This document shows positions 3,201 through 30,589 of a DNA stretch of 64,000 nt, piece by piece. The stretch's first letter is position 1; each line of letters opens with the position of its first letter. Made by a program: the position numbers and the translations under genes. The notes under the pieces are model-generated. The model saw only the letters and a program-made list of their open reading frames with translations, was not told where the DNA came from and searched no databases. Source of the stretch: Liolophura sinensis (lineage: Eukaryota; Mollusca; Polyplacophora; Chitonida; Chitonidae); the NCBI RefSeq assembly GCF_032854445.1, contig NC_088301.1:18779808-18843807 (forward strand), read 5' to 3'.

Positions 3201-6200
3201 ATAAGGTGAGTGATATGTCACAATTTTAACCTTTTTATTTTCTGAATTATTACTTCTGTTAAAGTAAACAAGATAGTATTGATACGTTGAGATACATTTG
3301 GATATTTGAAGAAAAATATAAAATATGTTATGGGGAACAACTGCTTACAATAAAGAATTATATGAAGATTGTTAAAAAATAATTTAGAGCCTGAGAATGG
3401 TGTACTAGTTCAATATTTATTAGAAAATGTAATGCATATCTTTTAATCAAAAATGCTAAATCGTTTGCATACTACAGAAACTTTGCTTCTTTTGTCTTTC
3501 ATGCTTTGCTGAAACACTTCGCACTTTGCTGAATAGTAAAAATTCAAACATTGCTTTGCTCACAGGGTATCCAGTACAAGTTCATGGTGGCAGTGCTTAT
3601 TGAGTACATTCGTTCACTTAATCACTTTGTCATCCCAGTGCAGGTAAAAAACATTGGAGGAAGATGTGGAATAAAACAATATAAAAAAGACATATAATAA
3701 CTCAGCTCAGAGTTCAATTTCTTTGAAAGATTCAATTTGATTGGTGATTGATGATTCAAAATCATAGACATACATGGATAATTTGAGTGTTATATTTAGA
3801 TTACATGTACATCAGTCAGGTTTCTGCTTGTTTATATATTTGTTTATTTATTTGATTGGTATTTTACCCTGAACTGAAGAAATTTCACTTATACAATGGA
3901 TGCCAGCATTATGGTGGGAGGAAACTGGGCAGGGCAGACCACCCGTAGATTGCTTGCAGACCTTCAAACATACGACTGAAGAGGAAGCCAGCGTGAGCTG
4001 GACTCATAGGGGCCACATTGGAGGGAGACTCCTGGGTCAATGCACCGTGCTGGCATGCTAATCACCTTAGCCACGGAGGCCGTAAAGTAAGGTTTATATC
4101 AAACATGGGACTAATATGTTTTGTTATATTAGTCCCATATCAGAGTCTCATCAGCGTTAAAATCTAGATTGGATAAATAGAGAGGGGGGGTGGTAGGTGG
4201 TTGATGTGCCGGTGCAGAGCAATGACCCAGGAACCCAGGAACCTCTCATCAATGCAGTCGCTGTGAGTTCTAGTCCAGCTCATATTGGCTTTTTCTCTGA
4301 CCGTGTGTGGGAAGGTCTGGCAGCAACTTGTAAACGGTTGTGTGTTTTCCCCAGGCTCTGCCTGGTTTCTCCCATCATAATGCTGACTGCTCTTTTATAA
4401 GTGAAATATTCCTTACAGCATAAAAGACACCAATCCAATAACTAGATAGCTAAATAAATGGAAAACAATGTTGATTTGTTCTCGTATAGTGTAGTGTGAA
4501 CTTGTATAGATTTGAAATTAGAGTGGGTTAGTATTTACACGTTTAATTTTTGTTATTTTGACTATAACTTTGTCAACTCTCATTGTGCATTGACTGTAAC
4601 AAGCTTAAACACATAAAACTAGTCTAAACATACAGGCATTATTATTGTTGAATTCATGTTGAAATGTGTTGATGCCTGTGAGAATTTGTATCCTGCTGAA
4701 ATATTCGCCAATGAATATTTGGCGAATATTTCAGCTTAGGGAACACCAGTTGTGTTTTGTCGACAAGCAGACACTAAAAAGGTGCAGAAATGGAATAAAA
4801 ATAAGACTAAGAAGGCACCTTCTTGTTTTGTCCAATTTTAACATTTTTTATTATTTTTTTTGTTTTTCTAAGCTTTTCGATCATTTAAATGTGTCTTCAG
4901 CAGGAGAAAATTGCTCAAACAGCCCACATTTCCCACAATTTAGAAGATTATTATAAAGTATTAGCACAGTTGGTAGAGTGTCCGCTTCAGGAGCGGTAGA
5001 TCCAAGGTCAATCCTGGGTCGAGTCACACCTAAGACCTTAAAAGGGGAAGTTATAACTTCTTCGCTTGGTGTGCGGCATTGACGGGATAGCGCAATGACT
5101 GGTTGACCCGTATCAGTATAATGGCTCGGGCGGGGCGTATTACTTGCCCTCTGTAAGTTGCCTCAGTGAAGCAGCAGTAGATAAAAGAGCGGTGGAAATC
5201 CGTCCTGCAACAAGGAGGCACATTACATGCACTCAATGGATTCCTTCATCGTCAGATGACTGAAAAATTGGTAAATACAACATTAAAGCCCATGGCACTC
5301 ACTCACTGTATTAATTATTATTATTATTTGTTAAATCCTCCTCCATCAGTGGGAAAAGAGTTCAGACTGGTGTGGCCTTAGTTTTGGTTTGAGGTTTAAT
5401 ATTAAATAACTTCATCTTCCTCCCCAGCATTACCTGTATGAGTTGATCATAAACACACTGGTTCATCATAACTGTTTCTACCAGCTTCACCAGTTCCTAC
5501 AGTACCACGTACTCAGCGACTCCAAACCCCTGGTGAGTGGAAAAGTGTAATCAGGGGCTGAATCTACAAGCCATTTCTGACTTGAGCAAACATTTCAAAC
5601 CTCTTCACAATGCCTAGTTTTTGGTACTTGAAGTTGAAATTTGGACACATTTGTCGTAAGATAATATTTTTAAGGTGGACAATATGTTGATTCCTAAATT
5701 CCAAAAATAAACTTTAAGATCATACTTCAAATTTTGACCAATCAGAAATGGGTGTGCCGAATCGGCCCAAGAGGCCAAATTCACAATATAGGCCTGTTGT
5801 TCAATGCATGTATTTAAGTTTCTACCTTTATACCCAGTCTTGGATATTTGACTGCTCAATAATATAATAATAATATCTTTATTTTCAGAGGGTAACAAAC
5901 TCAGTCAATATGTCAGTATTTCCCCTGAGGCCCTCCATTCACACAACCACTCTGCAGTCACACAGGTTATCTGACTGCCTGTGGGGGACTTTGTGACAGT
6001 ATAAAGCATTGGGCAACACATACGCGGTTGTTTGTGCAGTCTAACATTCATTAAAGATCACTTGTCTTCCATCAGTATGGTATGCATATCAGGAAACCAC
6101 AAGTGGTAAAGTTCGTCAGTGACTTGCCAATGGTCAGTGGTTTATGCTGTGCACTCAAGTTTCCTCCACCCTAAAAACTGACTGCCATCTTATAAATGAA

Positions 6201-9200
6201 AACATTTTGCGCATAGTGATAAGCAGTCATGAAGTAAATGGGTAAATAACCACTACCATGACAGCCAAGGTTATAGGTGGTAGGTTGCCATGGAAATTAC
6301 ATGAATAGAGATAAACCATACCTATGTTTTATGAAATAGGCCTGTGACAGAGAGAAATAGTTATTTGTAGTATTTGTTCAGTCTTGCATTTGACACTTGC
6401 ATAACACAGTGTGCAACAAAGATTATTGAGACAGTTTTTGCAAAAAGGTGTGAACATTTTTTTCTCTTTCAAAGGATGATAGACTTCTTTACTTGATACG
6501 TGTACATGCATAACAGCCCAGACTTCTTCAGTTGACAAACAGTTTATCTTGTATGGTTGTGGTGTTTGCAACTTACAAAACCATGTGTCAAAGTCACATT
6601 TATTCATCAGTAATGTATGAAAATATATTCATTTATTTATTGATTAGTGTTTTATGCCATACTCAAGAATATTCCATGTATGCGAAGGCGGTATAAAATA
6701 TAAGTCTGCCAGGAACCTGTGGATGTTCCTGGGTTTCCCCAGTTTCCCCGTTTTTCTCTCACTAAAATACTGCCTGCCGTCATACAAGTGAAATACTCTT
6801 GAGTATGCCGTAAAGCACCAATCACATGAATAAATGAATAAATACAAAAAAAATTTATGTAAAATATCACCATTTTACAAGATTGGAAGAGAAAGGTTTA
6901 TCCAACAAGTTTAAAAACCTGATTTTAAAAAAGATACTTACATGTATATACATGTATTTGTTACACTATTGTTATCAGTCCTTAATGCACTGGTACATAT
7001 ATAACCATCTTATTTTCAGGCATGTCTGATGCTATCACTAGAGAGTGTGTACCCTCCTGCTCATCAGCTGGCACTGGATATGCTCAAGGTGAGTATTGCA
7101 TTGTCAGGCCTGTCTGATGCTGTCACTAGAGAGTGTGTACCCTCCTGCTCATCAGCTGGCACTGGATATGCTCAAGGTGAGTATTGCATTGTCAGGCCTG
7201 TCTGAGGCTATCACTAGAGAGTGTCTACCCACCTGCTCATCAGCTTGCACTGGATATGCTCAAGGTGAGTATTGCATTGCCAGGCCTGTCTGATGCTATC
7301 ACTAGAGAGTGTGTACCTTCCTGCTCATCAGCTGGCTCTGGATATGCTCAAGGTGAGTATTGCATTGTCAGGCCTGTCTGATGCTGTCACTAGAGAGTGT
7401 CTACCCACCTGCTCATCAGCTGGCTCTGGATGTGCTCAAGGTGAGTATTGCATTGTCAGGCCTGTCTGATGCTATCGCTAGAGAGTGTCTACCCACCTGC
7501 TCATCAGCTGGCACTGGATATGCTCAAGGTGAGTATTGCATTGTCAGGCCTGTCTGATGCTATCACTAGAGAGTGTCTACCCTCCTGCTCATGAGCTGGC
7601 ACTGGATATGCTCAAGGTGAGTATTGCATTGTCAGGCCTGTCTGATGCTGTCACTAGAGAGTGTCTACCCTCCTGCTCATCAGCTGGCACTGGATATGCT
7701 CCAGGTGAGTATTGCATTGTCAGGCCTGTCTGGTGCTGTCACTAGAGAGTGTCTACCCACCTGCTCATCAGCTTGCACTGGATATGCTCAAGGTGAGTAT
7801 TGCATTGCCAGGCCTGTCTGATGCTATCACTAGAGAGTGTGTACCTTCCTGCTCATCAGCTGGCTCTGGATATGCTCAAGGTGAGTATTGCATTGTCAGG
7901 CCTGTCTGATGCTGTCACTAGAGAGTGTCTACCCACCTGCTCATCAGCTGGCTCTGGATGTGCTCAAGGTGAGTATTGCATTGTCAGGCCTGTCTGATGC
8001 TATCGCTAGAGAGTGTCTACCCACCTGCTCATCAGCTGGCACTGGATATGCTCAAGGTGAGTATTGCATTGTCAGGCCTGTCTGATGCTATCACTAGAGA
8101 GTGTCTACCCTCCTGCTCATGAGCTGGCACTGGATATGCTCAAGGTGAGTATTGCATTGTCAGGCCTGTCTGATGCTGTCACTAGAGAGTGTCTACCCTC
8201 CTGCTCATCAGCTGGCACTGGATATGCTCCAGGTGAGTATTGCATTGTCAGGCCTGTCTGGTGCTGTCACTAGAGAGTGTCTACCCTCCTGCTCATCAGC
8301 TTGCACTGGATATGCTCAAGGTGAGTATTGCATTGTCAGGCCTGTCTGATGCTGTCACTAGAGAGTGTCTACCCTCCTGCTCATCAGCTGGCACTGGATA
8401 TGCTCAAGGTGAGTATTGCATTGTCAGGCCTGTCTGATGCTGTCACTAGAGAGTGTCTACCCTCCTGCTCATCAGCTGGCACTGGATGTGCTCAAGGTGA
8501 GTATTGCATTGTCAGGCCTGTCTGATGCTATCACTAGAGAGTGTCTACCCTCCTGCTCATCAGCTGGCACTGGATATGCTCCAGGTGAGTATTGCATTGT
8601 CAGGCCTGTCTGATACTATCACTAGAGAGTGTCTACCCTCCTGCTCATCAGCTGGCTCTGGATATGCTCAAGGTGAGTATTGCATTGTTCGGCCTGTCTG
8701 ATGCTGTCACTAGAGAGTGTCTACCCTCCTGCTCATCAGCTGGCACTGGATATGCTCCAGGTGAGTATTGCATTGTCAGGCCTGTCTGATGCTATCACTA
8801 GAGAGTTTCTACCCTCCTGCTCATCAGCTGGCTCTGGATATGCTCAAGGTGAGTATTGCATTGTCAGGCCTGTCTGATGCTGTCACTAGAGAGTGTGTAC
8901 CCTCCTGCTCATCAGCTGGCACTGGATATGCTCAAGGTGAGTATTGCATTGTCAGGCCTGTCTGATACTGTCACTAGAGAGTGTCTACCCTCCTGCTCAT
9001 CAGCTGGCTCTGGATATGCTCAAGGTGAGTATTGCATTGTCAGGCCAGTCTGATGCTGTCACTAGAGAGTGTCTACCCTCCTGCTCATGAGCTGGCACTG
9101 GATATGCTCAAGGTGAGTATTGCATTGTCAGGCCTGTCTGATGCTATCACTAGAGAGTTTCTACCCTCCTGCTCATCAGCTGGCACTGGATATGCTCAAG

Positions 9201-12200
9201 GTGAGTATTGCATTGTCAGGCCTGTCTAATGCTATCACTAGAGAGTTTCTACCCTCCTGCTCATCAGCTGGCACTGGATATGCTCAAGGTGAGTATTGCA
9301 TTGTCAGGCTTGTCTGATGCTGTCACTAGAGAGTGTCTACCCTCCTGCTCATCAGCTGGCACTGGATATGCTCAAGGTGAGTATTGCATTGTCAGGCCAG
9401 TCTGATGCTATCACTAGAGAGTGTCTACCCTCTTGCTCATCAGCTGGCACTGGATATGCTCAAGGTGAGTATTGCATTGTCAGGCCTGTCTGATGCTGTC
9501 ACTAGAGAGTGTCTACCCTCCTGCTCATTAGCTGGCACTGGATATGCTCAAGGTGAGTATTGCATTGTCAGGCCTGTCTGGTGCTATCACTAGAGAGTGT
9601 TTACCCTCCTGCTCATCAGCTGGCTCTGGATATGCTCAAGGTGAGTATTGCATTGTCAGGCCAGTCTGATGCTGTCACTAGAGAGTGTCTACCCTCCTGC
9701 TCATGAGCTGGCACTGGATATGCTCAAGGTGAGTATTGCATTGTCAGGCCTGTCTGATGCTATCACTAGAGAGTTTCTACCCTCCTGCTCATCAGCTGGC
9801 ACTGGATATGCTCAAGGTGAGTATTGCATTGTCAGGCCTGTCTGATGCTATCACTAGAGAGTTTCTACCCTCCTGCTCATCAGCTGGCACTGGATATGCT
9901 CAAGGTGAGTATTGCATTGTCAGGCCCGTCTGATGCTGTCACTAGAGAGTGTGTACCCTCCTGCTCATCAGCTTGCACTGGATATGCTCAAGGTGAGTAT
10001 TGCATTGTCAGGCCTGTCTGATGCTATCACTAGAGAGTGTCTACCCTCCTGCTCATGAGTTGGCACTGGATATGCTCAAGGTGAGTATTGCATTGTCAGG
10101 CCTGTCTGATGCTGTCACTAGAGAGTGTCTACCCTCCTGCTCATCAGCTGGCACTGGATATGCTCAAGGTGAGTATTGCATTGTCAGGCCTGTCTGGTGC
10201 TATCACTAGAGAGTGTTTACCCTCCTGCTCATGAGCTGGCACTGGATATGCTCAAGGTGAGTATTGCATTGTCAGGCCTGTCTGATGCTATCACTAGAGA
10301 GTGTGCACCCTCCTGCTCATCAGCTGGCACTGGATATGCTCAAGGTGAGTATTGCATTGTCAGGCCTGTCTGGTGCTATCACTAGAGAGTGTCTACCCAC
10401 CTGCTCATCAGCTTGCACTGGATGTGCTCAAGGTGAGTATTGCATTGTCAGGCCTGTCTGATGCTGTCACTAGAGAGTGTCTACCCTCCTGCTCATCAGC
10501 TTGCACTGGATATGCTCAAGGTGAGTATTGCATTGTCAGGCCTGTCTGATACCGTTTGATGCTGTCTGATGCTTCATTTTCAGGTAAATCTTACATTATC
10601 TGGTGATGCATATGGTGTTATTATTGCACACCTGTAAATACTTAAAGGTTATTATCGCCCATCCTGTAAATGAAATGGCGTACTCACAGGCTCTTGTGGC
10701 TTGCCCATTACCAATCAGCTTACAGGTTTTGGCCCTTTGTGCTTGTTCATCTCCAGCTTTAAGTGAGAAAGTTTCTCAGGTAGTTGGTTAATGGGCTGTG
10801 ATTTAATCTAGCTTTTCCTTCACTTACAAATCTGACTATGATTGGTGTATAAGTAAATTGTTCTTGTATTTGGCATTGAACATCTATGAGACAAATAATT
10901 AGATTTTAGAATATTATATTTAACCTAAAGTTTTGCAAACATTGTTCAAGAAGCACATTTTGTTTGATTCTAATTATTAAACATTATTGAATAATTCTGA
11001 TTAGACTAAATTTTTTTTTAATTTGCACATATATATTTAATAATTATTAACTAATTCTAAGTTAACAATTGTCATTTTGTTAAGGGTTTTAGTCTCTTGC
11101 ATAACCTCATGTGTATGTTGATAGGTAAACTTTTGCCTCAAGTTTCCAAAGGTAATTTTAAATTTACATTGTCAGCTGCAGAGAAAATGTTGTTTTGTTG
11201 TCAGAGGTTGTCCACAGCTAATGAGGAGATCATAGAAGTGTTGCTATCTAAACAACAACTGCTCCCTGCTCTCAGGTAGGTTTATAGTGCTTAATGTTAA
11301 TGAATGCTCCCTTACATTTAGCTCATTCATCCAGTGATTATATAAAAATGGTTTTTAAACGATGAGAACAGAAACTTTATAAGGTTCTCTGCATTTTTAT
11401 TTTCTAGAAAGATACTTTTGCGAATGATTAGTCATAATTGTCATTTTTTGCCCACATGGTAACCAAAATCTCGATTCTGTTGCCGTTAACCAAATGTCAT
11501 TTTTAACCACTGTGGCAATCAAAATTGTTACTCCATGACAAAAAGTTGTTATACTCTTCACACCATATGTATTTGTAATCAAACACGTCATGCCCTGTCA
11601 TTTTGGTTATCAGAATCGATGCTCAATACATCACAGTGCCATTTGACAGAACTGTCAGTACTTGCTGAGCAGATTACAAATGATTTGTCACAATTTCACA
11701 GTATCGCTTTATGTATTTTTAGTGACATTGCCCAGGTGACCTATCAGACCAGAGAGAGTACAGACATGCAAACTACCATACCATGCAGCGGCAAATTAAA
11801 CTTCTCTGTATTTATATACTTCTGTTTTCAATCACATTCATGAAATCTCTTGCTTCAGACTTTCACACGTAAGCCATCATATGCATTATAAAATGATCAT
11901 TCTTGAGACCTTCTGATTGGCCAGGTTTATTCGAATGATTGGTGCCATGGATACAGTGTCATCAAGGAAGTTTCTGGATGCTGCCATGGCAACTGAGGAC
12001 AACATGCTGTTCTATACTGTGTTTAAATTCTTCGAGCAGAGAAATTATCGTCTCAGAGGAAATCCCAGATTTCCATCGGGTAAGTTTTGATAAAATAAAG
12101 TTTTCCTACAAACCATGAGAATAGATATTCAGTATTGATCAAAATTTATACATATACATACACAGTCTATATATGTGTGTTTGTTGCAAAGCAACTCTGT

Positions 12201-13088
12201 GCAAGGCCAAATACAGCTATATTTTAATTTGGGCACCAAAGTAGTGTAGTGTAATTTGATCTAAAATATTTTCAGATATTGAGAAACCTGAATTTAATTC
12301 CTCATATACCAACTCTTATCATCCAAATTGTATATAAATCTTTTTTTATCGTCGGTGCACACTCTCCATGATATGGCTACAAAATTGCTGATGTGGCGTT
12401 AAGCCATAATCATTCAATTATTCGTCAGTGCACATAATTTTAGGGGATTTTTTCAAACATTTAAATTGAATTTATAAGGTAATATTCCTCATGATTTGGG
12501 CTTTTTTAAGGGTGTGCTGTAATTTGGCTACTGTAAAGGGTATGAGAATGTTCTTATATTTGACCTTGCTGTGAAGGAGATATCGTCACTGGCATGACTG
12601 GTGTTGGTTGTCGATAGAGATAGCTTGTTACCTATGGTTTTCTAAAACAGAGCAAGAACCACTTCCACAAAAGTAAATGAATCTACTTTTCTCAATCTTT
12701 TTTAAGAGAATTTTGAGAATGACCTCTGGGTGAAATCTATCATCTAATTATAAAACAAATCAGAAAAAAATGGGTTTTAGGTTTTCAGTTAATAACAGGT
12801 ATTATTTATTTTCAGTTAATAACAGGTATTATTTATTTTCAGTTAATAACAGGTATTATTTATTTTCAGTTAATAACAGGTATTACCTATTTTCAGTTAA
12901 TAACAGGTATTACCTATTTTCAGTTAATAACAGGTATTATTTATTTTCAGTTAATAACAGGTATAATTTATTTTCAGTTAATAACAAGTATAATTTATGT
13001 TTCAGGTGAACATTGTGATCAGTACATCAAGCACTTTGAGTCCATCTTTGGCACGGACGCCTTATCACCAGTCTTAACACCAAGCTGA
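258..13088 (+). CDS. RMC1: RMC1 (regulator of MON1-CCZ1; C18orf8/Mic1), C-terminal 334 residues, 11 exons
   Basis: RMC1 is the third subunit of the MON1-CCZ1 complex, the exchange factor that activates Rab7 on late endosomes and lysosomes; it is needed for autophagy and NPC1-dependent cholesterol export (family knowledge). Coding exons read from the sequence: 258-308, 752-805, 1399-1457, 2493-2666, 3098-3205, 3566-3643, 5428-5532, 7020-7088, 11205-11275, 11925-12079, 13006-13088 (stop TGA 13086-13088). All junctions are AG/GT and the phases join without a frame break. Recognisable conserved strings include WIVFQP, LGCLWYVQLKL, VILSVCRQML, QSDMYTHVFSVF, LHQFLQYHVLSDSKPL, LSLESVYPPAHQLALDML, STANEEIIEVLLSKQQ, EDNMLFYTVFKFFEQRN and GEHCDQYIKHFESIFG, which match the Mic1 domain in order. 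The N-terminal beta-propeller half lies upstream of the window. Exon 7020-7088 is the first unit of a 40-copy array. Its donor must be paired correctly: using the second donor adds 88 nt and shifts the frame. Confidence 0.93.
600..690. repeat. ATT/AAT-rich simple repeat with a short local duplication
   Basis: The motif 'catgcttttattattattta' occurs twice about 45 bases apart, with AAT/ATT runs and 'tttacatgtacatg' between. It is low-complexity intronic sequence. Confidence 0.7.
1113..1376 (+). mobile_element. tRNA-derived SINE, family 1, near full length
   Basis: It carries the family order: 'gtgagttcaagtccagct' (B-box-like), 'ggtcatgggtttcctccag', 'cataatgctggctgcgatcg', 'gagtatggtgtaaaactcca' and an (AAAT) tail. 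It lies in the RMC1 intron just before the exon at 1399, so the element's 3' end is about 20 bases from that acceptor. Confidence 0.8.
1935..2475 (+). repeat. About nine-copy 65-bp minisatellite in RMC1 intron
   Basis: The block 'gttgtccacattacacagtg' recurs at about 61-65-base steps (near 1942, 2003, 2068, 2131, 2196, 2261, 2326, 2391, 2454). It alternates with 'ttccacagttatacactgag'. The array stops about 20 bases before the acceptor of the exon at 2493. Confidence 0.9.
2722..2900 (+). mobile_element. Truncated SINE, family 1
   Basis: The head 'ggcttggtggttagcgtgct', then 'caagtccagctcatgctggc', then the 3' end 'gtgaaatattcaagagtaca' with an AAAT tail. The middle of the family consensus is deleted. 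Confidence 0.7.
3838..4085 (-). mobile_element. Full-length SINE, family 1, reverse orientation
   Basis: It starts with a TTTAT run (reverse of the tail) and 'gattggtattttaccctgaa'. It continues through 'ccagcattatggtgggagga' and ends at 'cttagccacggaggcc', the reverse of the tRNA-like head. Confidence 0.8.
4107..4138. repeat. Short inverted repeat
   Basis: Arms 'gggactaatat' and 'atattagtccc' are separated by 'gttttgtt'. It lies between two SINE copies in an RMC1 intron. Confidence 0.7.
4180..4460 (+). mobile_element. SINE, family 1
   Basis: It has 'aatgacccaggaacccagga', a B-box-like 'gtgagttctagtccagctca', 'cataatgctgactgctcttt' and a degenerate tail. It carries a small internal duplication of 'cccaggaa'. 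Confidence 0.75.
4695..4735. repeat. Perfect 17-bp-arm inverted repeat (hairpin)
   Basis: Arms 'gctgaaatattcgccaa' (4695-4711) and 'ttggcgaatatttcagc' (4719-4735) are exactly complementary with a 7-base loop. It is located in an RMC1 intron. Confidence 0.85.
4955..5305 (+). mobile_element. tRNA-derived SINE, family 2
   Basis: The head resembles a tRNA: 'agcacagttggtagagtgtc' (A-box-like), then 'ggtcaatcctgggtcgagtc' (B-box-like). The body includes 'cttcgcttggtgtgcggcat', 'caatgactggttgacccgta', a 'gcagcagtagataaaagagc' block and the 3' end 'gactgaaaaattggtaaata'. The same body and 3' end recur at 28208, 30950 (reverse), 41727 and 44210 (reverse), which defines a family distinct from family 1. 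Confidence 0.75.
6628..6846 (+). mobile_element. Composite SINE family-1 fragments
   Basis: A reverse-oriented tail ('attagtgttttatgccatac', about 6640-6680) directly abuts a forward 3' half ('aagtctgccaggaacctgtg' to 'gagtatgccgtaaagcacca', about 6700-6845). This looks like one insertion into another or an inverted pair. Confidence 0.6.
7020..10560 (+). repeat. 40-copy 88-bp tandem array of an RMC1 coding exon plus splice donor
   Basis: Each 88-bp unit is a 69-nt exon encoding 23 residues (ACLMLSLESVYPPAHQLALD plus MLK, with variants) followed by the 19-nt spacer 'gtgagtattgcattgtcag'. Unit starts fall at 7020+88k for k = 0 to 39 with no indels; a degenerate forty-first start lies at 10540. 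The first copy follows a normal intron 3' end ('cttattttcag') and joins in phase with the exons at 5428-5532 and 11205-11275. Later copies are preceded only by the 19-nt spacer. The donor AAG/CAG|GTGAGT is kept in every copy I read. Reading through spacers shifts frame by one per unit and reaches TGA in the third unit, so unspliced multi-copy inclusion gives a premature stop. Confidence 0.95.
10561..11204 (+). other. RMC1 intron remainder, no gene seen
   Basis: AT-rich sequence runs from the decayed end of the exon array ('gtttgatgctgtctgatgct') to the acceptor 'gttgtcag' at 11204. I see no repeat family or conserved coding signal in it. Confidence 0.6.
12780..13002 (+). repeat. Eight-copy 27-bp array immediately before the last RMC1 exon
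   Basis: The unit is 'ttttcagttaataacaggta' plus 'ttattta'. The unit length is a multiple of three, so it is also open as a repeated FSVNNRYYL string, but it lies in an intron. Every unit carries a 3'-splice-like 'atttattttcag' and a 5'-splice-like 'cag|gtatta'. The real acceptor at 13005 follows the last unit. Confidence 0.9.
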
Positions 13089-14520: not shown

Positions 14521-15744
14521 ATAAAAGGATACATGAAATGTTTGGTTTTTATTTCTTAATATGGAGTATATGATATTGCCGCAACATTAAAAGGACAAAA
14601 ACGCTTCTGAGCTTTCTTTACAAGACGTAAAAATAGCTTTAAACTGCAGTTTTCCAAGGGCCACAACAGTTTGTCTGTAAGTTCACTGGACTGATGTAGT
14701 GAAGTGAATGGTGATAGTCAAATGAACCTTTGTTGGGGGCAGAGTCCAAATGGTGAGCACTACGTTGGTCCTGCGCTCCCATTATGTTCAATCATTTCCG
14801 AACATTATCAGTCATTGACAGAAAATATGCATAAAACAGAGTGGTTATCAGGAAAATGAAATATGCCTCAAAAATGGCATTATTTTTTTTGCATATCTTC
14901 CTTCATTTTCCTTAAAATCGTTCCTCCTCACTTTATAGTACCTTTTCATGTATTCTCCATGTCTGCATAATGTTGCTGACTCTTCAAAGCAGTTTTAGCA
15001 CTATTACCATCATAACTAAACCCACATGGTGTCTGCTTTGGTCAGACATGTCTCCAACATGACAATACTTACTTCACTGGCAGCAGTATCACAAGAAGAC
15101 AGTTTACATTCATGCACACACACCTAATGACTCCTTGTCACCATGACTGAAAAATTGTTAAGTTACACCCCAAGTGTTCATTCATTCTGATCATATCTGC
15201 ATTACATGATCTGCATGTATTTGCAACAATATTGATTTTGATTTGTCAAATGTGTGATTTTGAGTGACAGTTCAGAAAGGTTTTACTGAAAATCAAGAGG
15301 GTTTACTTGCCATTGACAAGAACTGTGCAAAGGGAAGCAACTCTTGTACACCCATGGCACTACAGGACCTTTAGCTAGCTAATATGTTATCTCATTGATT
15401 CACACGATGTATTATAGTAAGCAGGAGTAACCCTATCCGGTATTGAAGTATTGTTTTTTAAACAGAGAATTCAAAGTTGAGGACAGTGTGGTTGTAGTAG
15501 TGAAAAGATTTGATTGACCCCATTGTGTACAATGTATGTACAGTCTATACATGCATTTTTATTTTTCAAATAAAAACCATATTTACATGAACTTACATGT
15601 AAATGTACTTTTTTAAAAATGTTTTTTAGCCTTCACAATATGAAGAGAAATAAAAGAAAAAAAATTTGAATGTGTTTGACTGGTATTTATTTCAATTGTA
15701 GTTTTGAGGTACTGAAGAATGCTTGAATTCTTGGACGAATTCAT

Positions 15745-16360
15745 AATCCTGTTTATGGTGAGGAAACTTAAAACTGACAGGAATCCAAGATGCCATAGTC
15801 CCGTTGATGGTGAGAAAACTTAAAACTGACAGGAATCCAAGATGTCATAGTCCTGTTTATGGTGAGGAAATTTAAAACTGACAGGAATCCAAGATGTCAT
15901 AGTCCTGTTTATGGTGAGGAAACTTAAAACTGACAGGAATCCAAGATGTCATAGTCCTGTTTATGGTGAGAAAACTTAAAACTGACAGGAATCCAAGATA
16001 TCATAGTCCTGTTTATGGTGAGGAAACTTAAAATGTCATAGTCCTATTTATGGTGAGGAAACTTAAAACTGAAAGGAACAAAAGATGTCATAGTCCTGTT
16101 TATGGTGAGGAAACTTAAAACTGACAGGAATCCAAGATGTCATAGTCCTCTTTATGGTGAGCAAACTTAAAACTGAAAGGAACGCAAGATGTCATAGTCC
16201 TGTTTATGGCCAGGAAACTTAAAACTGAAAGGAACCCAAGATGTCATAGTCCTATTTATGGTGAGGAAACTTAAAACTGAAAGGAACCCAAGATGTCATA
16301 GTCCTATTTATGGTGAGGAAACTTAAAACTGACAGGAATCCAAGATGTCATAGTCCTACA
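15745..16360. repeat. About twelve-copy 52-bp minisatellite
   Basis: The unit contains 'gatgtcatagtcctgtttat' and 'ggtgaggaaacttaaaactg'. Spacing between 'catagtcc' blocks is about 52 bases, with one shorter unit near 16030. It is intergenic between RMC1 and the elongase gene. Confidence 0.9.
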
Positions 16361-18370: not shown

Positions 18371-20339
18371 AGTAAACATTTTACACCGATATAAGCATAA
18401 AACAAAAGTAACTGAACTTTCTGTCTTTCACATACATACACCAGTGTATTAAACAATTTCAAACATGTTAGAAAACATGTTCTCCAAGAGAATGTCCAAT
18501 TCCACATGCTTTTTCAAGCTGAACTGGTTTTCCAGATTTTTTAAGGCCTGGAAAAATTTAATTTCAAATTCCAGGCTTTTCAAGGCATCGTACAAAACCT
18601 TATCTACGTCTGACAAGCCATGCTATAACAACACTGAAAGCACACCACCATCTTCAGGTGAAGCACTTAATCATCTCATCCAACAGAAGCACAAACCGCA
18701 TAAAATTCATGGAACTGCCTGTACATAGCTGTGATTTGTATTTACCTGTGTTTTGATTGTGGAGCAATTAATGGAACGAGGTTGGCCAGTCAGGTAAAAT
18801 CTTTCTATTTATCACATGTTTAATGTTGCAATGCCAGGCCTTTAGGGGTAGCAGCATAGTACTATTGGTGGCATCTCCTCAAACACCTCACCCTCAGCTT
18901 GTAATGCATTTACAGATTTTATCTTGAGTGAACACACCATCATTCAATTTAATGCAAAACCCACCACAGACTTGACTGACAGCAGATCAGGTTCCCATGG
19001 ATACTGTCCCACCCACTTTAATTATATGTGCCAGTACCTTTTCTTTGTCATTGCCCAACATTATTTGCGAACATCAGTTTGCTTTTTACTAAACGTTTCA
19101 CTAATGGATGAATCTAACACATCCAATGTCCTGGTGAAAGCAACTGATGTCACAGAAGACTTAACACTTGTAGTCAATGTGTGGGACATACGGTTGACCT
19201 ATTTGCAACTTTTTACTTACAATTTTATTGTCTATGATTGGTCAATTGCATGTTCTTCTTATGATTGACAGTTCAGAAAGGTCTATTAGGAGTCATCTTT
19301 TTTTTTTCTGTATAAGGCAGAATTTATCATATACCGGTACCCATGACAATTTTAGCTATACATGTAACAACAACAACAACATGTATTAGTAAACAAGGTT
19401 ATATACATTACATCATCAGCTACCTCTTTATAAAACTTGATCACCTTCTCACTACAATTTACAATATATAGAGGCATCAAAAACACACAAAATAGATTTC
19501 CCAATGATATACTAAGATAATTACTTCAAAATCAACATGTCCAATGTCTATATAGAGGCAATACATTTATCTGCATAGAAAATACTTGTTAATTTTGTTG
19601 CAACAATAAAGTGAAAATCACCGGAAAAATTCAAGGACAAAGCAAATGATGGAATAAACACGAAACCTGGTTGTCAAGGTGACCTTCAGAATTTTTAGCC
19701 CGTACATAAAGCAATGACTTACTAAAAACAAGATGTGTTGACATAAACATGTGATTTACATTCTCTATGAACGTTCTTGGTTTTGATTTAGACAAGGATG
19801 GTTTAGCTAAACGTAATGTGAATTTTACAGTTTGCAATCACAAAATTTGATATAACACTTTCGGCGACCTTTATAGTTAACACTGAAAATGGATGACAAA
19901 AAATGACTGAAGAAAGAAGAAACTATATACCCTGGAGAAAACTTGAGCAAACTGAAGTCAGATGATCAACGCACTGAAGAAAGTCTCACAGACATTTGAT
20001 CACTAGATAATGTTCAACAGAAAGCAGTCCTCTGATTTGATCAAATACATGTACAGTCAAGCTGAAGAAACACGCAGCCAAATGAACAGTACTTATTACT
20101 GACAAATTAACAAACAGGCGGAAAGCATATTCTTGCAACAAAATTACCTTAATTACATGCAATCATAAGATCTAAGCTTGAATCAAATTCAACTTCAATA
20201 ATAGCATGATCAGAAATTCACATAACATACGCTGAACTGCAGCTACACGTTAGTTTCATCAAGTTCCACCAGGGGCTGGACAATCGTGTTAATTACGCTT
20301 TACAACCAAGTACATCTATCCTCACAATCACAATATTTT

Positions 20340-20570
20340 TCCCCTCGTAACAAAGCTTGACAAGCAAGTATCCACAGTCAGAACATTTTCCTTTGTATTA
20401 AACAAAGCTTGACAAGCAAGTATCCACACAGTCAGAACATTTTCCTTTGTATTAAACAAAGCTTGACAAGCAAGTTTCCATACAGTCAGAACATTTTCCT
20501 TTGTATTAAACAAAGCGTGACAAGCAAGTATCCACGCAATCAGAACATTTTCTTGTAGGAAACAAAATCT
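20340..20570. repeat. 56-bp minisatellite, about four copies (copy A)
   Basis: The unit contains 'gtcagaacattttcctttgt' and 'aacaaagcttgacaagcaag'. The matching array in copy B (33490-34060) has about ten units. Confidence 0.9.
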
Positions 20571-20699
20571 AGACAGGCAAATTATCCACATAAACTTACT
20601 TTATGTTACATCAGTAAAAGGACACCGGCAATTGATCAGTGGTAGCACTACTTGACAGGACCAAGGTAATTTGTGAAATATGTAAATGTACTTACTGTT

Positions 20700-20740
20700 T
20701 ACACATCTGGGATGGGGGGAGGGGGGGGGGCAGACAAGAC
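20700..20740. repeat. G-rich run
   Basis: 'gggatggggggagggggggg' and flanking sequence, a poly-G tract of the kind that can form a G-quadruplex. The copy-B counterpart at about 34240-34257 differs in length. Confidence 0.6.
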
Positions 20741-22469
20741 TGAATAATTAATCCTGCTGTATCAGATCAATTCTGTCTTCAAAACGTTACACAATCTTTA
20801 ACATTTTCTTGTGACCTCTCTCACAACAGAGAAGGTAATTATGCCAAAATAACAATAATAATAATAATAATAATACATGTGGTAATAATAATAGTTATAA
20901 CAGACTTTTATGGATGAAGCATGAGTGTAGTGGACAGTGAAGAACGTACATATCAATAACATAGTTCCGTTATAACTAGTTGTTAACAAAGGCATCAGAA
21001 CTTTGTACGGAAAAATTACATGTAATTTACTTCCATGATACCTCAAACATGATGTTATTCATAATAATATTGTTCAGGTATATTTGCTACAGGTACTCAT
21101 GGAGGCGAGCTCGTAATGGACTTCTATATATATATATGTATATGTATAATATAAAAATAAAAAGAAACAATAACAACACTAACACTGACTAAAGGAAGCA
21201 TAAATACATATACATTCCATGTGAAACTATTTAGTTATTTGATTGATGTTTTACACCGTATTCAATAATATTTCACTTGGATTGAAAACTAAGCACATTC
21301 AATAAAACACATCAACACAACTTAATGCTTTCATTCACGACTTCAATTTTTGTATCGATCTGAACAAAAATTTAAATTTGTGCCGAAAATAATTTGCTTT
21401 GATGGCTGTCATTTTAGCTTTTCATAAAGCCATTTGCAACAGTGTTCTTATGATCTTAGCTTAGTTACATATCAGCCACTGCTGGTTGTACCCAGCATTG
21501 ACCATGGACAAGCTACTATTCTTGTTGAGTCAAAGTCGAAGTCAAACTTTGATACAGACCATTCTCTTTCTGGGCATCTCGCTGAAGGGGAATCAGTTGC
21601 TGGCATCTGGCATCTGATATGCTTTAATCAACTAGTCTTTCAGATTTTCATTTTTCAATCAGGAAACATATATATATAAAAAATGCACAAGAAAGAGTAC
21701 CTTGTTGAAAATTTGTGTATATATGTATGTCTACAATCAGTGCTAAATATATAAGCAGGAATTTCTATGTGAAAATCCCTTGAATGCAAGTCCAATTCTG
21801 AGTATTACAGTTGCATGTAACCTGGGATTAAGATAGAGAGATGTATACATTCTGTTTTCATTAAAATTGTTCTCTTTTCCATTTAGTCTTTCAGAGCAGG
21901 AAAAACAAGCAGTAAAAGAGAGATGTACACTGTATGTTGTGATCAGCAACATCATTCAGCACCGTAAATACTTCAGTTTCAATATACTGTCTATATTATG
22001 ACAATATGTTCAGGAATCCTGAAACCCTAATTGGCTGGGAACTACATTTTTCTATAACTGCATTCTTTGAGAATGTTGCGAGTCAAATCTGTATGGCACA
22101 AAATGGTTACAGAATTATATCACTACATACAGATTGATTAGATATTTACACCTGAATATAACTGCCTTCCCTTGGGAAAAAATGCGTCCATTTTAAAAGC
22201 AGCACACTGGTTTTATTTCATGCACTTCAGACAATACAGACTAATGCTCCCAGGATTCCCCTGACTGCATTTCAATATAGAAACACTTCCCAAAGTTTAA
22301 CGGGAATGAGGTTGGAGAGGATCCTTTAGCGGTGTTGCTGGCATAATGCAGAATACATATATACCTGTACAACATAGCAAAACACGAACATCACTTTTTA
22401 ACTTGTAAAAACAAGTGAAAACCCTAACAAAAACAATAAAGCTATTGCTGACTGCATTGGATTTCTGGG

Positions 22470-22560
22470 GTTGTGTTTCCCACTTGGTGACCTCATGAGG
22501 CAGTGTTTCCCATTTGGTGACCTCATGAGGTGGTGTTTCCCATTTGGTGACCTCATGTTC
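22470..22560. repeat. Three-copy 30-bp repeat (copy A)
   Basis: 'gtttcccatttggtgacctc' followed by 'atgaggcagt' occurs three times. It is conserved in copy B at about 36000-36090. Confidence 0.8.
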
Positions 22561-23618
22561 TATTCTTACTGTGGACATTCTTCTGGCTTAATCAGGCACT
22601 GCAGACGGACTAGTAGGGGCTGTAAGGGTCTCAAATTTGGCTTAATTAGCCAAGGCATGTGCAAAGCAATACCCAATCCGCTGGCATACATCATAAGCCC
22701 CACAGGGTCTTAAATCTGCTATAACACTCAGGACACTGGCAGCACTTAAATATAGACCAAAAATACACAGGCAATGAGCTCTTCAAATAATTCAACATCA
22801 GTAAAATTGTGCGAAATATTCTACAGTAATCATCTTTGGGCAAATGCAACAGATGTCCCCTGAATATGTTGAACACTACATCATAGTGGAAAATAAAAAA
22901 GAAACTTAGGTAGTGTTAAGTTACAGAACTCAGGCTGATTCCACTAAGCCATTTCTGACTTCAAGGCAAAATTTGAAATACAATCTCAAAGCTTATTATT
23001 AGGCATCAGAACTCAAAATTTTTTCCACTTCATCGATTTTATCTTAAGACAAATATGTCTGAATTTCAATTTCCAGTACCAAAAACTAAGCATCGTAAAA
23101 GATCTTCCAAATTTTGACAGAAGTCAGAAACAGCTTTGTGGAATCGTCCCCTGCTATTTGTCACAGTGAGATCTGATAAACCTTTAGAGGCCACAGACTG
23201 AAGACCAGCACAAGTTTTACCGTGAATGACTGTATATCTACACGAACATGTCAAAATTATGTTCATCACCATCGTGGATGGTACATGTACATGTATGTAG
23301 GTATGTTACTTTGTTTCGGAGTAGTTATGCGAGGCTCTGCCTTTACAACAGCTTGGACTACAGTCCAATCTGTTGGATCCTCTTACCACCACATAGTATG
23401 AAACCATACTATCACACACCACAACAATTATCAAACAAAGCAACAAGAGAGAAGACAAAACAACGAAACAAACAGCTACAAGACTCAAAACTAATAGCAC
23501 TTCATGCAACTTAGCATAAATTATGTCCCAATCATAAGAGAGGGGGAGAGTGTAACACCGAGTTGAAGTAAAACAGCCTACAAATGGACATTTGTTCACC
23601 AAGACACACCATCATCAA

Positions 23619-26600
23619 TCACTGCTCCTTCACTCTGTTACGAAGGTACCCATTGGTGTCTCCTTTAAGATGGCTGCCACCATTCTTGTGCTCCTTGATT
23701 CCATTGGCTCCTGGGGTGGTGCCATTGTTTACGGCGGATTTACTGTCTTTGTGTGCAAGTCTCCTTGAGCGTCTATATGTCTGGATGTAGAAATTCCCGA
23801 ACAGTATAACCATGGCAACCATGTAGCTAGAGAGGAGGTACTGCCCCCAGCGCGGGAAATCACAGGAGAGGGTTAGAGAGTAGGCTGTGTGTGAAAAAGT
23901 TATCACAAACTGTATCTGCAAAAAACAAAACAACAGCATTTAGTTTCTAAACATACCTCTCTGAGTCATTTCAACTAATCAAGGCATTGTCAGACAATGC
24001 AAAATACCTGTGCTGGTTGTTTGTCTCTCAAAGCGGGGTGTACCTGGCCTGCATTTCATATCATGGCAGAATGATGGTAAAGATAAATCTCCTTCACCAT
24101 TATAAATCTTAATTACTATACATGAATATGCTTAATTTTACTTTAAAGTGCTCATTCAAGTAATTACTACACAGATATTACACCATATTTATTACATCTT
24201 ACTCTTTGAGAGTCGGGCAGGTTGTGCACCAAAAATGATCATAATTAGGCCAGCATATTGAAGTATTAATTGAAAAAATAACCTGAGTACTGAGTAAATA
24301 ATCGTATGATTAGGTTGGATTAGCTCATTAGAGTAATTAATATGCATCAAATCTGATGAATTTGTAACATCATCAGATCTGCCTGCTAAAACGTTCAGTC
24401 ATGCTTGTATGAAGTCTGAGATTAATTCCAGCAGTAGATCAGAATAAAATGCTCTTAATACAATTTTAACTGAATTCCTTGTTAAAAAGGTATTTAACTG
24501 ATCTGCATGAAATTTTATTTATTTAATTGCTATATTCAAGAATTTTGCATTCCTGGAGTATTTCTTTTAACCAGGAATCTGTTTAAAGGTGAACTGTCCC
24601 AGTTTTATTCCTCACTACAACCTAACTGAGTGAAAAAAAAATGCTCACAACCAACCCAACGGTTGGAGCATAATTTTGAGCGCTTCTTCGGCATATAATG
24701 GTTTCGTGGCATGACGATTATCCATTTTCGTCGCATGTTCTAGTTACAACATCTAGTTATTCCAATTCTTTAAATCACTTCGGCTCAGTATTCAGATACC
24801 TCTAGGTTATAATGTCTCAATTCTGTGCAAAAAAAAAATGTAATCAACTGGGACAGTTCATCTTTAACACCAATGACTTAAAGCCGATCTGAATATGAAA
24901 ACTCATTGGCCGAAGGCTAGACAGTCACACTGAGCCAGCTCTTTAACCATTCGAGCTAGCAAAGTGGTCGAATGAGAAATAAGGAATTTCCCATTTTACC
25001 AACTGAAATTCCATTGAAAAATGCATATTCATTTGTGGGTTCTGATATTACCCTTTTTTTTAGTTTAACAAGTCAAAGTTTATTGGAATGATGAGGCTAT
25101 AAGACTATTTATTTGATTGGAGTTTTAGGACATACTCAAGAATATTTCACGTATACAACAACCTCAACAATTATGGTGAGATGAACCCAGAATCATCTGC
25201 ATGCTGCTGCCAGCCCATCCCCCTATGACACGAGAGGAAGCCAGCAAGAACTGGACTCACAATGACTGAATGAAGAGGATGGGGGGGGTTACTGATCACA
25301 GATCATTTACTGATCACCTGTCTCATCTTCTTTCCAGAGGCAAAAATGACACCTCTTTCCTTTAGGAACTTCTCCAGTTCACAAAACATTCAGATTCTCA
25401 TTTTTTCTTTCCTTCGTCTACTTTTTTAAATTACATTTTATGACACTTTTTAAGGAAACCCAGGTTATAGTGAACGTGATCAAAAATAGTTGCCTAACAT
25501 TTTGGACAGGTCACATGATACATTTGGACTTTTCTACCTTCAATAATAAAAAAGTGTAAACTCAAAACTCCCCTATTGGTGAGAGGATTGTGGGCAATTT
25601 TGCTGCGCTAGCACACTCACAACCCTTGGCCACGGAGGTTTCCAGCCATTGCTAGTATACTGGTTACAGTGTGATCCAACTTGTACAATATGTGCAGTTT
25701 TGCTTTCTTCATGAAGGACAAAATTTTAATATTTTATAAAATGAAAAAAAAAAAAACAACAAGAAGAACTGTTTGGTTTACTATCAAGCAAACAGTTGTC
25801 TTAAAACATACAAACTGATTATTAAAATCATACTTACAAGTTGAAACTTTGTTATATATTTTTTCCACCAGAGTTTTTCCCGGAGTGAAGGAATGGCTGA
25901 GAGGCCATAGTATGTGTACATTGCAACATGTACAAGGCAGTTCAAACAACTGCCAAAATAAGCTGTAAAAAGACAAAAGGACATGAGCTTGACAAGTATA
26001 AACATGTAATCTTGGTTAAATTTTTGAGTCTTTTAAACCCTTGTGAAACCAGATTACGCACTGTCCAAAACTTTCACACCCATTATGATAACATGTAGCT
26101 AGATTAGCATGGAGTATTTTACACCCATTATGAATGTAACATGTACATGTAGCTGGGTTAGCACTGAGTATTTTACACCCATTATGATTGTAACGTACAT
26201 GTAGCGAGGCTAGCACTGAGTATTTTACGCCCATTATGATTGTAACATGTACATGTAGCTAGGTTAGCACCAAGTATTTTACACCCATTATGATATTAAC
26301 ATGTAAATGTAGCTAGGTTAGCAATGAGTATTTTACACCCATTATGACTGTAACATGTACATGTAGCTAGATTAGCACTGAGTATTTTACACTCATTATG
26401 ACTGTAACATGTACATGTAGCTAGATTAGCACTGAGTATTTTACACCCATTATGACTGTAACATGTAAATGTAGCTGGGTTAGCACTGATTACTTTACAC
26501 CCATTATGACTAACATGTACATGTAGCTAGATTAGCACTGAGTATTTTACACCCATTATGATTTTAACATGTACATGTAGCTCAGTTAGCAATGTGTATT

Positions 26601-29600
26601 TTACACCCATTATGATTGTAACATGTACATGTAGCTAGGTCAGCACTGAGTATTTTACACCCATTATGACTGTAACATGTACATGTAGCTAGATTAGCAC
26701 TGAGTATTTCACACCCATTATGTTTGTAACATGTAAATGTAGCTAGGTTAGCACTGAGTATTTCACACCCATTTATGATAACAATGAACATTTATGGTCA
26801 AAAAATTTTCTACAAACTTCTTACGTTTTTCTTAGTTTCTACTTTACCATTTCTTATCTGAGAAAGCATGTTTTTTTCCTCCTTTACAAATCAAACCTCC
26901 GGAAAAGTTTGATTAAAGTGGGAAACACACAAGAAGTATATCCTTACATGAAAAGATTTCATATTTTTAAGAAACTTTCAGGAAATAACTCTGTATTAAA
27001 TGCCACATTTGTGATAAACACATTCTACACAAGTCCACGACATTAATGGCTAAAAATAAGTACAGATCTGGAGACAAATATGTGTTTTCTCAGGAAAGAA
27101 ATTTTCAATTTAAGAAATTTCCAGAATTTTATTATTATTTTTTTTTTGTCTGTACTGGTCCTATTGGGTCCACACCGACCCATGACATTTTGTAATTAAT
27201 TTTGCACCTTGTAAATAACCCCAATCACCACCCTCCCACCAGTACTTACACAGTCCCCCTGGAATGAACATCATCACCCACCACCAGATGTTGAGCATGG
27301 AGGCGTGATGAAACACGTGCAGGAACGTCACCTGGTTATTCTTCTTCCTCAGGATCATTAGCACAGTGTCCAGCAGCTCGATGGCCTTGGAGAAGAAATA
27401 CCACCACAGGACACGAGCCACCTAATCAAGGACAAAACACATTCCTGACAATACCTCAGCCTAAATCAGACATTATTTATTTGACTGTTGTTTGACGCCA
27501 TATTCAAGGGTTTTCCGCTCATACAATGGCGTTCAGTATTATGTGCTGAGGAAACAGGAGTGCCTGGGGAAAACCACTGACTTCTGGCAACTTACTGAAG
27601 CACTTTGCCATACAGACACGAACACCATGAAGGTGGAAGACATGTAGTTTTCAATGGGTGTTAGATTGTACAAATGGGCGTACAAGCGTTGTCAACCACC
27701 TGTTGTCACCCCACAAAAACAGAAAGCAAATGTGCAACTTCCCTGTCAAAGGACGGGATTGAATTTTGTGTGTTTATTTTATAAACTACAAAATTCCTGT
27801 CTTCACATCTCTTGTGTATTATAATCCACGTTACGGTACATGTTTAAATTGTAGGTCTTTTTTCAACTTTACATGTTGCAAGGTATTCTTGATTTAGACT
27901 TCTATATTTACACGGCTAAAAAAGATTGGAGTGGTCATTCTTGGTACAGCCTGCATAATTTACACAGCTAAAAAATTAGCAGGCCATCTAAGATTATTTT
28001 ATTCCAGTATTGGTTTGCATCTGTAAACTGGCCACAGACTGCTGTCAATGTTTTTACCCTCGTTTCTCTTGGGTTGGTCCAGGAGTCTTTGTTGTACTTG
28101 GCACAGAAGAAGTCATACCCTGCATCATAGGCACTCAGTATTATCTGTCAAAGAGAAGTCAAGATAAAAATCACAAGTCCAGACTTAACATAAAGGCTAA
28201 CAGAAATCTTCGGTGGCCTAATGGTTAGAAAGTGAGCATGCCTGGGATCAAACCCAGGTCGGGTCATACCGAAGGCTTTAAAAATGGTACTTGTTGCTGC
28301 CTCACTTGGTGCTCAGAACTGGAGATTAGAGCAAGGAAACAGGACTGGTTGGCCCAGTGACAGTATAAAGTGACTGGGTGAGGTGTCAGCATAATGCCAC
28401 TGGGTGAGGTGTCAGCATAATGCCACTGGGTGAGGTGTCAGCATAATACCACTGGGTGAGGTGTCAGCATAATGCCACTGGGTGAGGTGTCAGCATAATG
28501 CCACTGGGTGAGGTGTCAGCATAATGCCACTGGGTGAGGTGTCATGATACTTCAGTAGCAGCAGCACTTTGGCAGCATGGACTCGTTCTGACAAAAGAAA
28601 GAGACACTACACACTTATGAGCACATTTAATCTGTTGCCGTTACGACTGAAAAATTGTTAAGTGTGACGTTAATCCCAAATCATACATACACTAAAGGTT
28701 AACAACACTGCTCAGTACAGTTTATTTACACCTGTGATTTAATTTTCACATTTTTGTTTTTTTTTATTCCAGAGCATCTCTTCCCTTAGGTTGTGTATCA
28801 ACGGATTCATGCACAGTTGTACATTACATATGACGTAACAGAATTTCTAAAAGGTTAAATTTTCTCAACAAGAATGAAATTCCAGGAGGCCTGTTCAAAA
28901 TAAAAATGCATCAACAAAAGTTAAAAGGTTACTAGGATATGGTCTGACAGGAGAGTAGACCTGTTGCAGTCTCCTGTTCATTTTCCTGCCTATGTACTTT
29001 ACGATCAATCAAGGAAGGTTAGGCTGTGCCTGTACATACATTCTACATATGTACATGTGGAAATTATTTTTTTAAGGTACATGTATTAAATCCTTAATTA
29101 CTTGCAAATTCCCAAGAAGCTTTTTGTAATAGGAGCAAAGGAGATACAACTACCTCAATTCATCAACCTTCTTGTCGGATTTATGCACCTTTTTCATTTG
29201 CTTTCAGAGACAAAACTACACTGGATGGGTTGACCAATTTTATGACTTCAGGACAAAAAGCATAATTTTTATCAGTCTACGCATAATAATGTTTTCATAT
29301 CATGCTTGACTAAACATCTTGTAATCAGGTTAAAGGCTTGAAGATTTACAGCTATTTGTCTTATAGAACCACAGGTGTGAACAAGGTCAAAATTAGAAGT
29401 CACAGTTAACTCTTATGAAAGTGATGGAGTGGCCCAACTGAGGCCTTAAACCATTATCAAAAATATAAGCACCCTGGGAGGAGAAATCCAAATTGCCCAC
29501 AGAACAACTTTTAATAATTAGCTTCTCAGAATTCATACATAATTGTCAGTATTGTGTATAAACAGATACATGTAGCTAGTTTGATAAATGTTTTAACTAT

Positions 29601-30499: not shown

Positions 30500-30589
30500 C
30501 CTCGAGATCAAAATCTGAAACCACAATGAAAACCAGTCATAGTGACAGAAATGTGCAGTATGGAATAATGAAATACATGCAACCAGCAA

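Follow-up and report, generated by a model that had tools for sequence, protein, structure and literature searches.

How can a conserved gene be spliced correctly when one of its coding exons stands 40 times in a row, each copy with its own splice donor? This question is raised by the RMC1 gene of the chiton Liolophura sinensis, whose repeated exon lies in the window analysed here, that is, the whole stretch of 64,000 nucleotides at C7:18779808-18843807. Positions without a C number count from the first letter of the window. We believe, with a probability of about 0.8, that the RMC1 array is a tolerated minisatellite spanning a splice boundary, of the kind known from amphioxus as mirages (PMC3087553), here in a whole-exon form, and that unit 1 is the copy spliced in. 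The parts of the locus are as follows.

5428-5532, + strand: RMC1 exon 5' of the array, with its donor GTGAGT at 5533 (PDB and Pfam match, tblastn).
6990-7019, + strand: 3' end of the upstream intron (CATCTTATTTTCAG), the only non-repeated acceptor of the array (sequence, pyrimidine counts).
7020-7088, + strand: first copy (unit 1) of the 69-nt exon, the one probably used (private A, unshared exon sequence).
7020-10539, + strand: array of 40 x 88 bp, the 69-nt exon plus GTGAGTATTGCATTGTCAG (Tandem Repeats Finder, TRF, and unit table).
7211-8286, + strand: recent multi-unit duplication within the array, in which 548 bp are repeated exactly at a distance of 6 units (unit comparison).
10540-10583, + strand: a 41st unit, truncated and decayed, with the motif TTCATTTTCAG (read from the sequence).
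11205-11275, + strand: next RMC1 exon (RLSTANEEIIEVLLSKQQLLPALR; PDB and Pfam match).
13006-13088, + strand: last RMC1 exon, including the stop codon (tblastn, sequence reading).

TRF reported the array at 7012-10550 with a period of 88, 40.2 copies, 95% matches, 0% indels and a score of 6406. Cut in register from 7020, it gave 40 units of exactly 88 bp, as the earlier note had claimed; 29 of these were distinct and their mean pairwise identity was 95.5%. The lack of indels was not used as evidence of selection on the units, because several other arrays with at least 90% matches also show 0% in TRF. Each unit spans an exon-intron boundary and holds the whole 69-nt exon with its own donor, followed by the rest of a 19-nt spacer, GTGAGTATTGCATTGTCAG. 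The lengths of 69 and 19 in the earlier note stood, and only its separate GTGAGT had to be dropped, because the donor is already inside the spacer, which ends in CAG. GTGAGT was found at the identical position in 40/40 units and the closing AG in 39/40; in unit 20 the acceptor is gone (TCG), and there is a TAG stop in unit 29. The 40 units encode 16 peptide variants. The 23-residue consensus peptide occurs in 9/40, and the other units are 1 or 2 residues off it, one of them by a stop. No N was found within the array, and the single gap of the window is at 31466-31665.

The exon at 5428-5532, one 69-nt copy and the exon at 11205-11275, joined, aligned without gaps to human RMC1 (9l0d_C, E 1.2e-38) and matched the Pfam domain RMC1_C (8.4e-41), which bears out the earlier assignment of the repeated exon to RMC1. 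With a human RMC1 sequence as the query, tblastn gave 20 coding blocks in order at C7:18769784-18792889, in addition to the repeated units and one row due to chance, and missed a few short parts of the protein. The translated N-terminal blocks match RMC1 in PDB. RMC1_C matched 47 places in the assembly, 46 of them in the RMC1 gene; the other, on C11, was no better than chance, so RMC1 is single in this assembly, save for its N-terminal exons, which are doubled at allelic contig ends. Judged from these alignments, the gene bearing the array looks functional. A retrocopy was sought as a trace of past splicing; the weak PF07035 match on C11 (E 0.4) was fetched and read as chance.

The exon 5428-5532, the stretch from acceptor i to donor j and the exon 11205-11275 were joined for every i/j pair. 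When acceptor and donor belonged to the same unit (i=j), the frame was open in 38/40, the exceptions being unit 20 (no AG) and unit 29 (TAG); when the join spanned units (i<j), it was open in 0/780. It had been claimed before that use of donor 2 with acceptor 1 puts the reading out of frame; this held, and the tested joins from acceptor 1 to donors 3-6 meet a stop within the array. The exon has 69 nt and is in phase 0, so the frame would survive the use of any one unit, or of several non-adjacent ones in series. For human EMD, the minimal productive distance from donor to branch point was 46 nt (PMC11291888). The 19-nt spacer is below animal intron limits, so adjacent units should not be joinable by removal of the spacer, if those limits hold.

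Three other RMC1 arrays also contain a splice junction. TRF gave eight arrays of period 20 or more in the gene, with overlaps merged, and four of them hold a junction. In the 46 bp x 20 array, the 3'-most ~24 nt of the exon ending in VVVHHQASK are repeated together with the donor, and copy 1 is the real exon end; the first donor keeps the frame open, and the later GTGAGA donors add a stop in 17/17. The 88 bp x 4.2 array holds the acceptor and the first bases of RMC1 exon 7, and its last copy is the real one. The 48-, 43- and 20-bp arrays of RMC1 have no splice junction inside. The remaining two are given below.

12782-13005, + strand: 27 bp x 8.3 array, with a unit of branch-point-like TTAATAAC plus TTTTCAG (TRF, sequence).
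1940-2475, + strand: 65 bp x 8.4 array, which stops 17 bases short of the RMC1 exon starting at 2493, with the junction excluded; counted as negative.

The 27-bp array ends at the true acceptor of the last RMC1 exon (13006). Its eight decoy acceptors all alter the reading, and for the last five a stop can be seen within the printed stretch.

Arrays of this kind were found in every control gene. NUP107, EIF3C, EIF3L, NUP205 and CSE1L were read as controls, four of them chosen before any array was seen and the fifth as a test of the prediction. All five carry at least one array with a real splice junction, which makes 6/6 genes with RMC1. The junction arrays in NUP107, EIF3C, EIF3L, NUP205 and CSE1L were 1/3, 2/7, 1/2, 3/8 and 1/6, respectively.

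NUP107: 106 bp x 6, acceptor plus SGDEGRVSQL (L013-L014).
EIF3C: 34 bp x 19, VKGGVPQ plus donor (L015-L017).
EIF3C: 73 bp x ~8, STEYVER plus donor (L015-L017).
EIF3L: 23 bp x ~30, degenerate, beginning at the donor after ...RRNPK (L018-L019).
NUP205: 82 bp x 10, acceptor plus VSLYKFVR (L020-L022).
NUP205: 41 bp x 27, acceptor plus KLKLERAS (L020-L022).
NUP205: 27 bp x ~11, degenerate, LVNIAK plus donor (L020-L022).
CSE1L: 126 bp x 7, ENEYIMK plus donor (L023-L024).

The exons beside these arrays match PDB chains of NUP205, NUP107, EIF3L and EIF3C (the VKGGVPQ exon weakly). The CSE1L exon gave no match in the PDB search and matched Pfam CAS_CSE1 at 2e-17.

Over the six genes, 12/34 arrays hold a real splice junction by our own, non-blind reading of the sequence. 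Without the 40-unit array, the count was 11/33 against 4.8 expected (P 0.003; with TRF units alone, 5.2 expected, P 0.006), and in the control genes alone it was 8/26 against 4.1 (P 0.03; with TRF units alone, 4.4, P 0.05), the expectations being those of random placement with generous numbers of sites; in the control genes, human exon counts served as upper limits for these numbers. The median copy numbers of junction arrays and other arrays were 10.5 and 3.2, respectively (P 0.0004), or 7.7 and 3.2 with TRF copy numbers alone (P 0.017). TRF rows of a period below 20 and overlapping rows were dropped, and the 34 include the 20-bp two-copy row of RMC1. Two pieces each were merged for the EIF3C 73-bp, the NUP205 27/54-bp and the EIF3L arrays, and the copy numbers of the EIF3L, EIF3C 73-bp and NUP205 27-bp arrays come from merging or a fuzzy pattern search, not from TRF. 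Arrays within ~30 bases of a boundary that do not clearly hold it were counted as negative, namely the RMC1 65-bp, EIF3C 33-bp and CSE1L 40- and 43-bp arrays. The earlier note had called the locus an unusual array in an ordinary gene. Exon-edge arrays recur in all the genes read, so the array is not unusual in kind; what stays unusual is its extent, with an entire exon captured and 40 copies, both extreme among the arrays sampled.

In each of the 11 sister arrays, the remainder of the exon adjoins just one end of the repeats. Since this one-sided attachment applies to 11/12 arrays, productive splicing there must use the exon-proximal site. By the same rule, unit 1, which stands beside the sole free-standing acceptor, would be the RMC1 exon, and it is probably the copy spliced in. 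All units contain the full exon, and the position of unit 1 next to the non-repeated acceptor is by itself no proof of use. Unit 1 can be told apart by an A at exon position 3 (GCA), private to it, and by a G at position 30, and its exon sequence is found in none of the other units. The pyrimidines in the 20 nt before the acceptors of unit 1, unit 2 and exon 5428 were 13/20, 9/20 and 15/20, respectively.

We infer that the array arose by tandem duplication of a segment covering the exon and its 5' splice site. Such a duplication would leave the outermost, exon-proximal splice context intact, hence its tolerance, and unequal exchange would then have expanded and homogenised the array to 40 units. 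During splicing, the acceptor of unit 1, with its own upstream intron, would pair with donor 1 across 69 nt, and the exon so defined would be joined to exon 11205, while units 2-40 would behave as intron. Each later acceptor lies 19 nt behind a strong GTGAGT donor, a pair that should be unusable as an intron, and mutual hindrance of the two sites is expected. Any join spanning units would carry a frameshift or a stop. As long as the exon-proximal rule holds, a boundary duplication is harmless, whereas a duplication inside an exon changes the protein, so boundary arrays should be tolerated. This argument explains their survival, not why boundary arrays seem to be above chance and longer than others.

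We favour tolerance with use of unit 1 because same-unit joins are open and spanning joins are not, because human RMC1 is matched without gaps by one copy rather than by two or more, and because such arrays recur at three other RMC1 junctions and in 5/5 control genes. It is also supported because turnover can be seen, in the 548-bp exact run and in the 4/8 arrays differing between haplotypes, and because the amphioxus mirages are a published precedent and high-fidelity (HiFi) reads can span 3.5 kb. Between the two alternatives offered earlier, the channelling of splicing to the first acceptor/donor pair is thus the better supported, by the 0/780 spanning joins and the 11 sister arrays; a mutually exclusive cassette has gained little, because the 23-residue peptides are near-identical and one copy fits the conserved protein.

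Several points weigh against our reading. The short-intron argument is built on human data, not on chitons. Internal acceptors, with 9/20 pyrimidines, are not clearly weaker than the real RMC1 acceptors at 11205 and 13006 (10/20 each), and we dropped channelling by pyrimidine-poor internal acceptors as its cause because the counts are nearly equal to those of two true acceptors. The splice choice has been deduced from genomic sequence alone in all arrays. Low spacer diversity and an excess of synonymous variants would, if real, suggest constraint beyond unit 1. Diversity in the RMC1 array was 0.010 in the spacer and 0.053 in the exon (site permutation P 0.03), the contiguous-window rank being only 7/88; in the C9 and C12 arrays described below, the pattern was reversed and the spacer was more diverse than the exon. 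The variants of the RMC1 array were 11 synonymous and 13 nonsynonymous (11/24), where 25-31% synonymous is expected, with P from 0.02 to 0.10 depending on the assumed transition bias; the ratio of 11:13 compares with 6:22 in the C9 and C12 arrays taken together (Fisher P 0.08). We regard these values as suggestive only. They may fit the use of several units, or turnover in which a selected unit 1 seeds the array. That all 40 units are under selection was considered and set aside, since the tests gave suggestive values only.

If several units were in use, the array could be a mutually exclusive cassette, in which any of ~38 units is taken, one per transcript, and exclusivity comes from a 19-nt spacer too short to be an intron. 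Points in its favour are a donor intact in 40/40 units, an acceptor in all but one, an open frame for same-unit choice in 38/40, a 69-nt exon that keeps any single choice in frame, and the mild excess of synonymous variants. A short distance from donor to branch point is a candidate basis of exclusive splicing, and 57 human clusters (9%) lie below 50 bp (PMC5740500). What such a cassette would offer the protein is scant: the consensus peptide stands in 9/40 units and the rest are 1-2 residues off, one with a stop, so the copies are hardly the different versions of one segment expected of a mutually exclusive cluster, lying 0-2 residues off the consensus apart from that stop. No unit past the first has its own upstream intron, and the sister arrays, each with just a piece of an exon, cannot work in this way. 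A diversity-generating exon cassette is not supported, and we consider exclusive choice among the units quite unlikely.

The array might instead serve as a splicing rheostat, in which competition among 40 donors diverts transcripts to spanning forms with a stop and the array length sets RMC1 output. The 780/780 non-productive spanning joins and the copy number differing between haplotypes in 4/8 other arrays compared would suit this idea; nothing shows selection on array length, and the RMC1 array is known from one haplotype only, so such a role seems improbable. Assembly error, that is, a collapsed, inflated or false array, must also be weighed, since uncollapsed allelic contig ends lie at two 200-N gaps around the gene, the array-bearing contig between these gaps is only ~42.9 kb, and the 40 copies are those of one assembled haplotype. 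The array is gap-free with 29 distinct units in order, and the diverged arrays on C9 and C12 share its tandem junction and so are independent evidence of the tandem form. PacBio HiFi reads with a mean length of 8,347 bp at 14x underlie the published assembly of the chiton Liolophura japonica (PMC11068029). Since this mean exceeds the 3.5-kb array, such reads are able to span it, and we think an assembly error highly improbable.

The window positions 18512-31465 and 31666-44718 are ~97.4% identical copies flanking a 200-N gap, that is, uncollapsed allelic contig ends. The upstream 200-N gap at C7:18768218-18768417 is likewise flanked by allelic ends (96-98.6%), which double the N-terminal exons of RMC1. 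Within these two overlaps, copy numbers differed between haplotypes in 4/8 arrays compared: 19 and 9 for a 48-bp array, 4.5 and 11.5 for 54 bp, 6 and 1 for 26 bp, and 5 and 1 for 31 bp. One 20-bp two-copy row was left out, and the 40-unit RMC1 array is seen in a single haplotype.

Five array queries across the assembly found the array unit at three loci at least. The two besides RMC1 are diverged arrays of the RMC1 unit.

C9:5479341-5480233 (L010 3842-4734): 10.3 copies of 88 bp, 77-81% identity (sequence search, TRF).
C12:27177960-27178668 (L004 4961-5669), with decayed units to 6210: 8.5 copies of 80-86 bp, 73-80%.

In the C12 array, 6 units passed the score limit of the unit scan, compared with 8.5 copies by TRF. 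Identity was 95.5% within the RMC1 array and 73-81% to the C9 and C12 arrays, a pattern of concerted evolution, and the 548-bp block that recurs exactly 6 units further on is a sign of turnover. The Kimura two-parameter distances of the consensus sequences to RMC1 were 0.24 for C9 and 0.23 for C12, and that between C9 and C12 was 0.33. H-to-D at position 43 and L-to-R at position 56 are common to the C9 and C12 arrays and occur in 0/40 RMC1 units. No other RMC1 exons were found near either array. Both carry the same tandem junction as the RMC1 array, so the tandem units predate the parting of both arrays from the gene, and the RMC1 array is evidently old. The dispersed lineage is no longer coding, a coding exon turned into a dispersed tandem repeat.

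Dispersal by a SINE (short interspersed element) was considered, since two SINE-like pieces of the same orientation flank the C9 array; such pieces are frequent around it, and the idea was kept as no more than a lead. In the window, 4960-5040 and 6640-6840 hold tRNA-like and SINE-like pieces, which to judge by mollusc SINEs presumably belong to a family frequent around the gene. The window also contains, at 51532-55474, a ~4-kb array of 53-58-bp units in ~72 copies with 81% matches (TRF) and, at 46249-47124, a nested array of AACCCTAATGTC-like units (TRF), which we take to resemble pieces of telomere repeat with inserts. At 15741-16358 and 28373-28544 there are units with donor-like TATGGTGAGG and ACTGGGTGAGG, which may be boundary arrays of another gene.

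These arrays are a natural competition among 4-40 look-alike splice sites, at both exon ends, in conserved genes that must work; most studies of how one splice site is chosen among identical ones use a small number of engineered sites. They sit where tandem-duplication models of intron gain expect new introns, and related chitons could show intermediates. For annotation, such arrays may yield false exons and broken gene models. The copies on C9 and C12 illustrate how a coding exon becomes non-coding tandem repeats elsewhere in the genome. The apparent excess and greater length of boundary arrays are the more interesting point. We speculate, tentatively and with some doubt, that splice boundaries are hotspots of minisatellite birth and growth in this chiton, that a genome-wide exon-proximal rule ignores tens of identical competitors, and that the RMC1 array caught a whole exon and seeded satellites on other chromosomes.

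Among the titles and abstract openings of the literature matches listed, there was no splice-boundary minisatellite of a mollusc and no whole-exon one, which is weak evidence of novelty. Earthworm metallothionein and seabream myostatin were rejected as precedents, the accounts consulted giving intronic or promoter repeats only. The kringle IV-2 copies of LPA are translated in series. As a variable number tandem repeat, kringle IV-2 resembles the RMC1 array in being protein-coding with 1-40 units and differs in having 5.6 kb per unit (PMC11462820). Exon 2 of Schistosoma mansoni SmPoMuc is likewise a short in-frame tandem exon with introns, up to ~20 genomic repeats and concerted evolution; its repeats are ~1 kb with full introns, and its protein has a variable number of a 9-residue repeat (PMC2576457). 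RMC1 has a 19-nt spacer, and its protein is matched by a single copy.

Mutually exclusive exons, such as those of Dscam and the steric types, share equal-length tandem exons and sites too close to be joined (PMC5740500, PMC5224494). In those systems, alternative choice has been demonstrated and the peptides usually differ, whereas the RMC1 copies are near-identical and known from sequence only. Intron gain by tandem duplication is similar in that duplication of a boundary makes extra splice signals (PMC4974935, PMC2812944); there a new intron is made, whereas RMC1 has tens of copies in one intron and no sign of a new one.

The nearest known system is found in amphioxus, where mirages in Adh3 and the globin genes BflGb6 and BflGb9 are tandem repeats with units of 10-160 bp that span either a 5' or a 3' boundary and keep AG/GT signals in many of their copies; haplotypes differ in length, and reverse transcription PCR suggested regular splicing (PMC3087553). 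Somatic instability has been reported for Adh3 of amphioxus. As read here, the chiton arrays show the structural features of mirages: they are boundary-spanning tandem repeats, AG/GT recurs in many copies, and concerted evolution is seen in the RMC1 array (PMC3087553). The 88-bp unit of RMC1 lies inside the published span. An authentic genic section beside the duplicates, as in mirages, is clear in the 11 sister arrays, and mirage length variation is matched by 4/8 neighbouring chiton arrays, the RMC1 array being seen in one haplotype (PMC3087553). The differences are that the RMC1 unit is a whole exon with its donor, in 40 copies compared with 6 and 3 in the BflGb6 haplotypes (PMC3087553), that the host is a mollusc and not a cephalochordate, and that diverged arrays of the RMC1 unit have been dispersed to two scaffolds.

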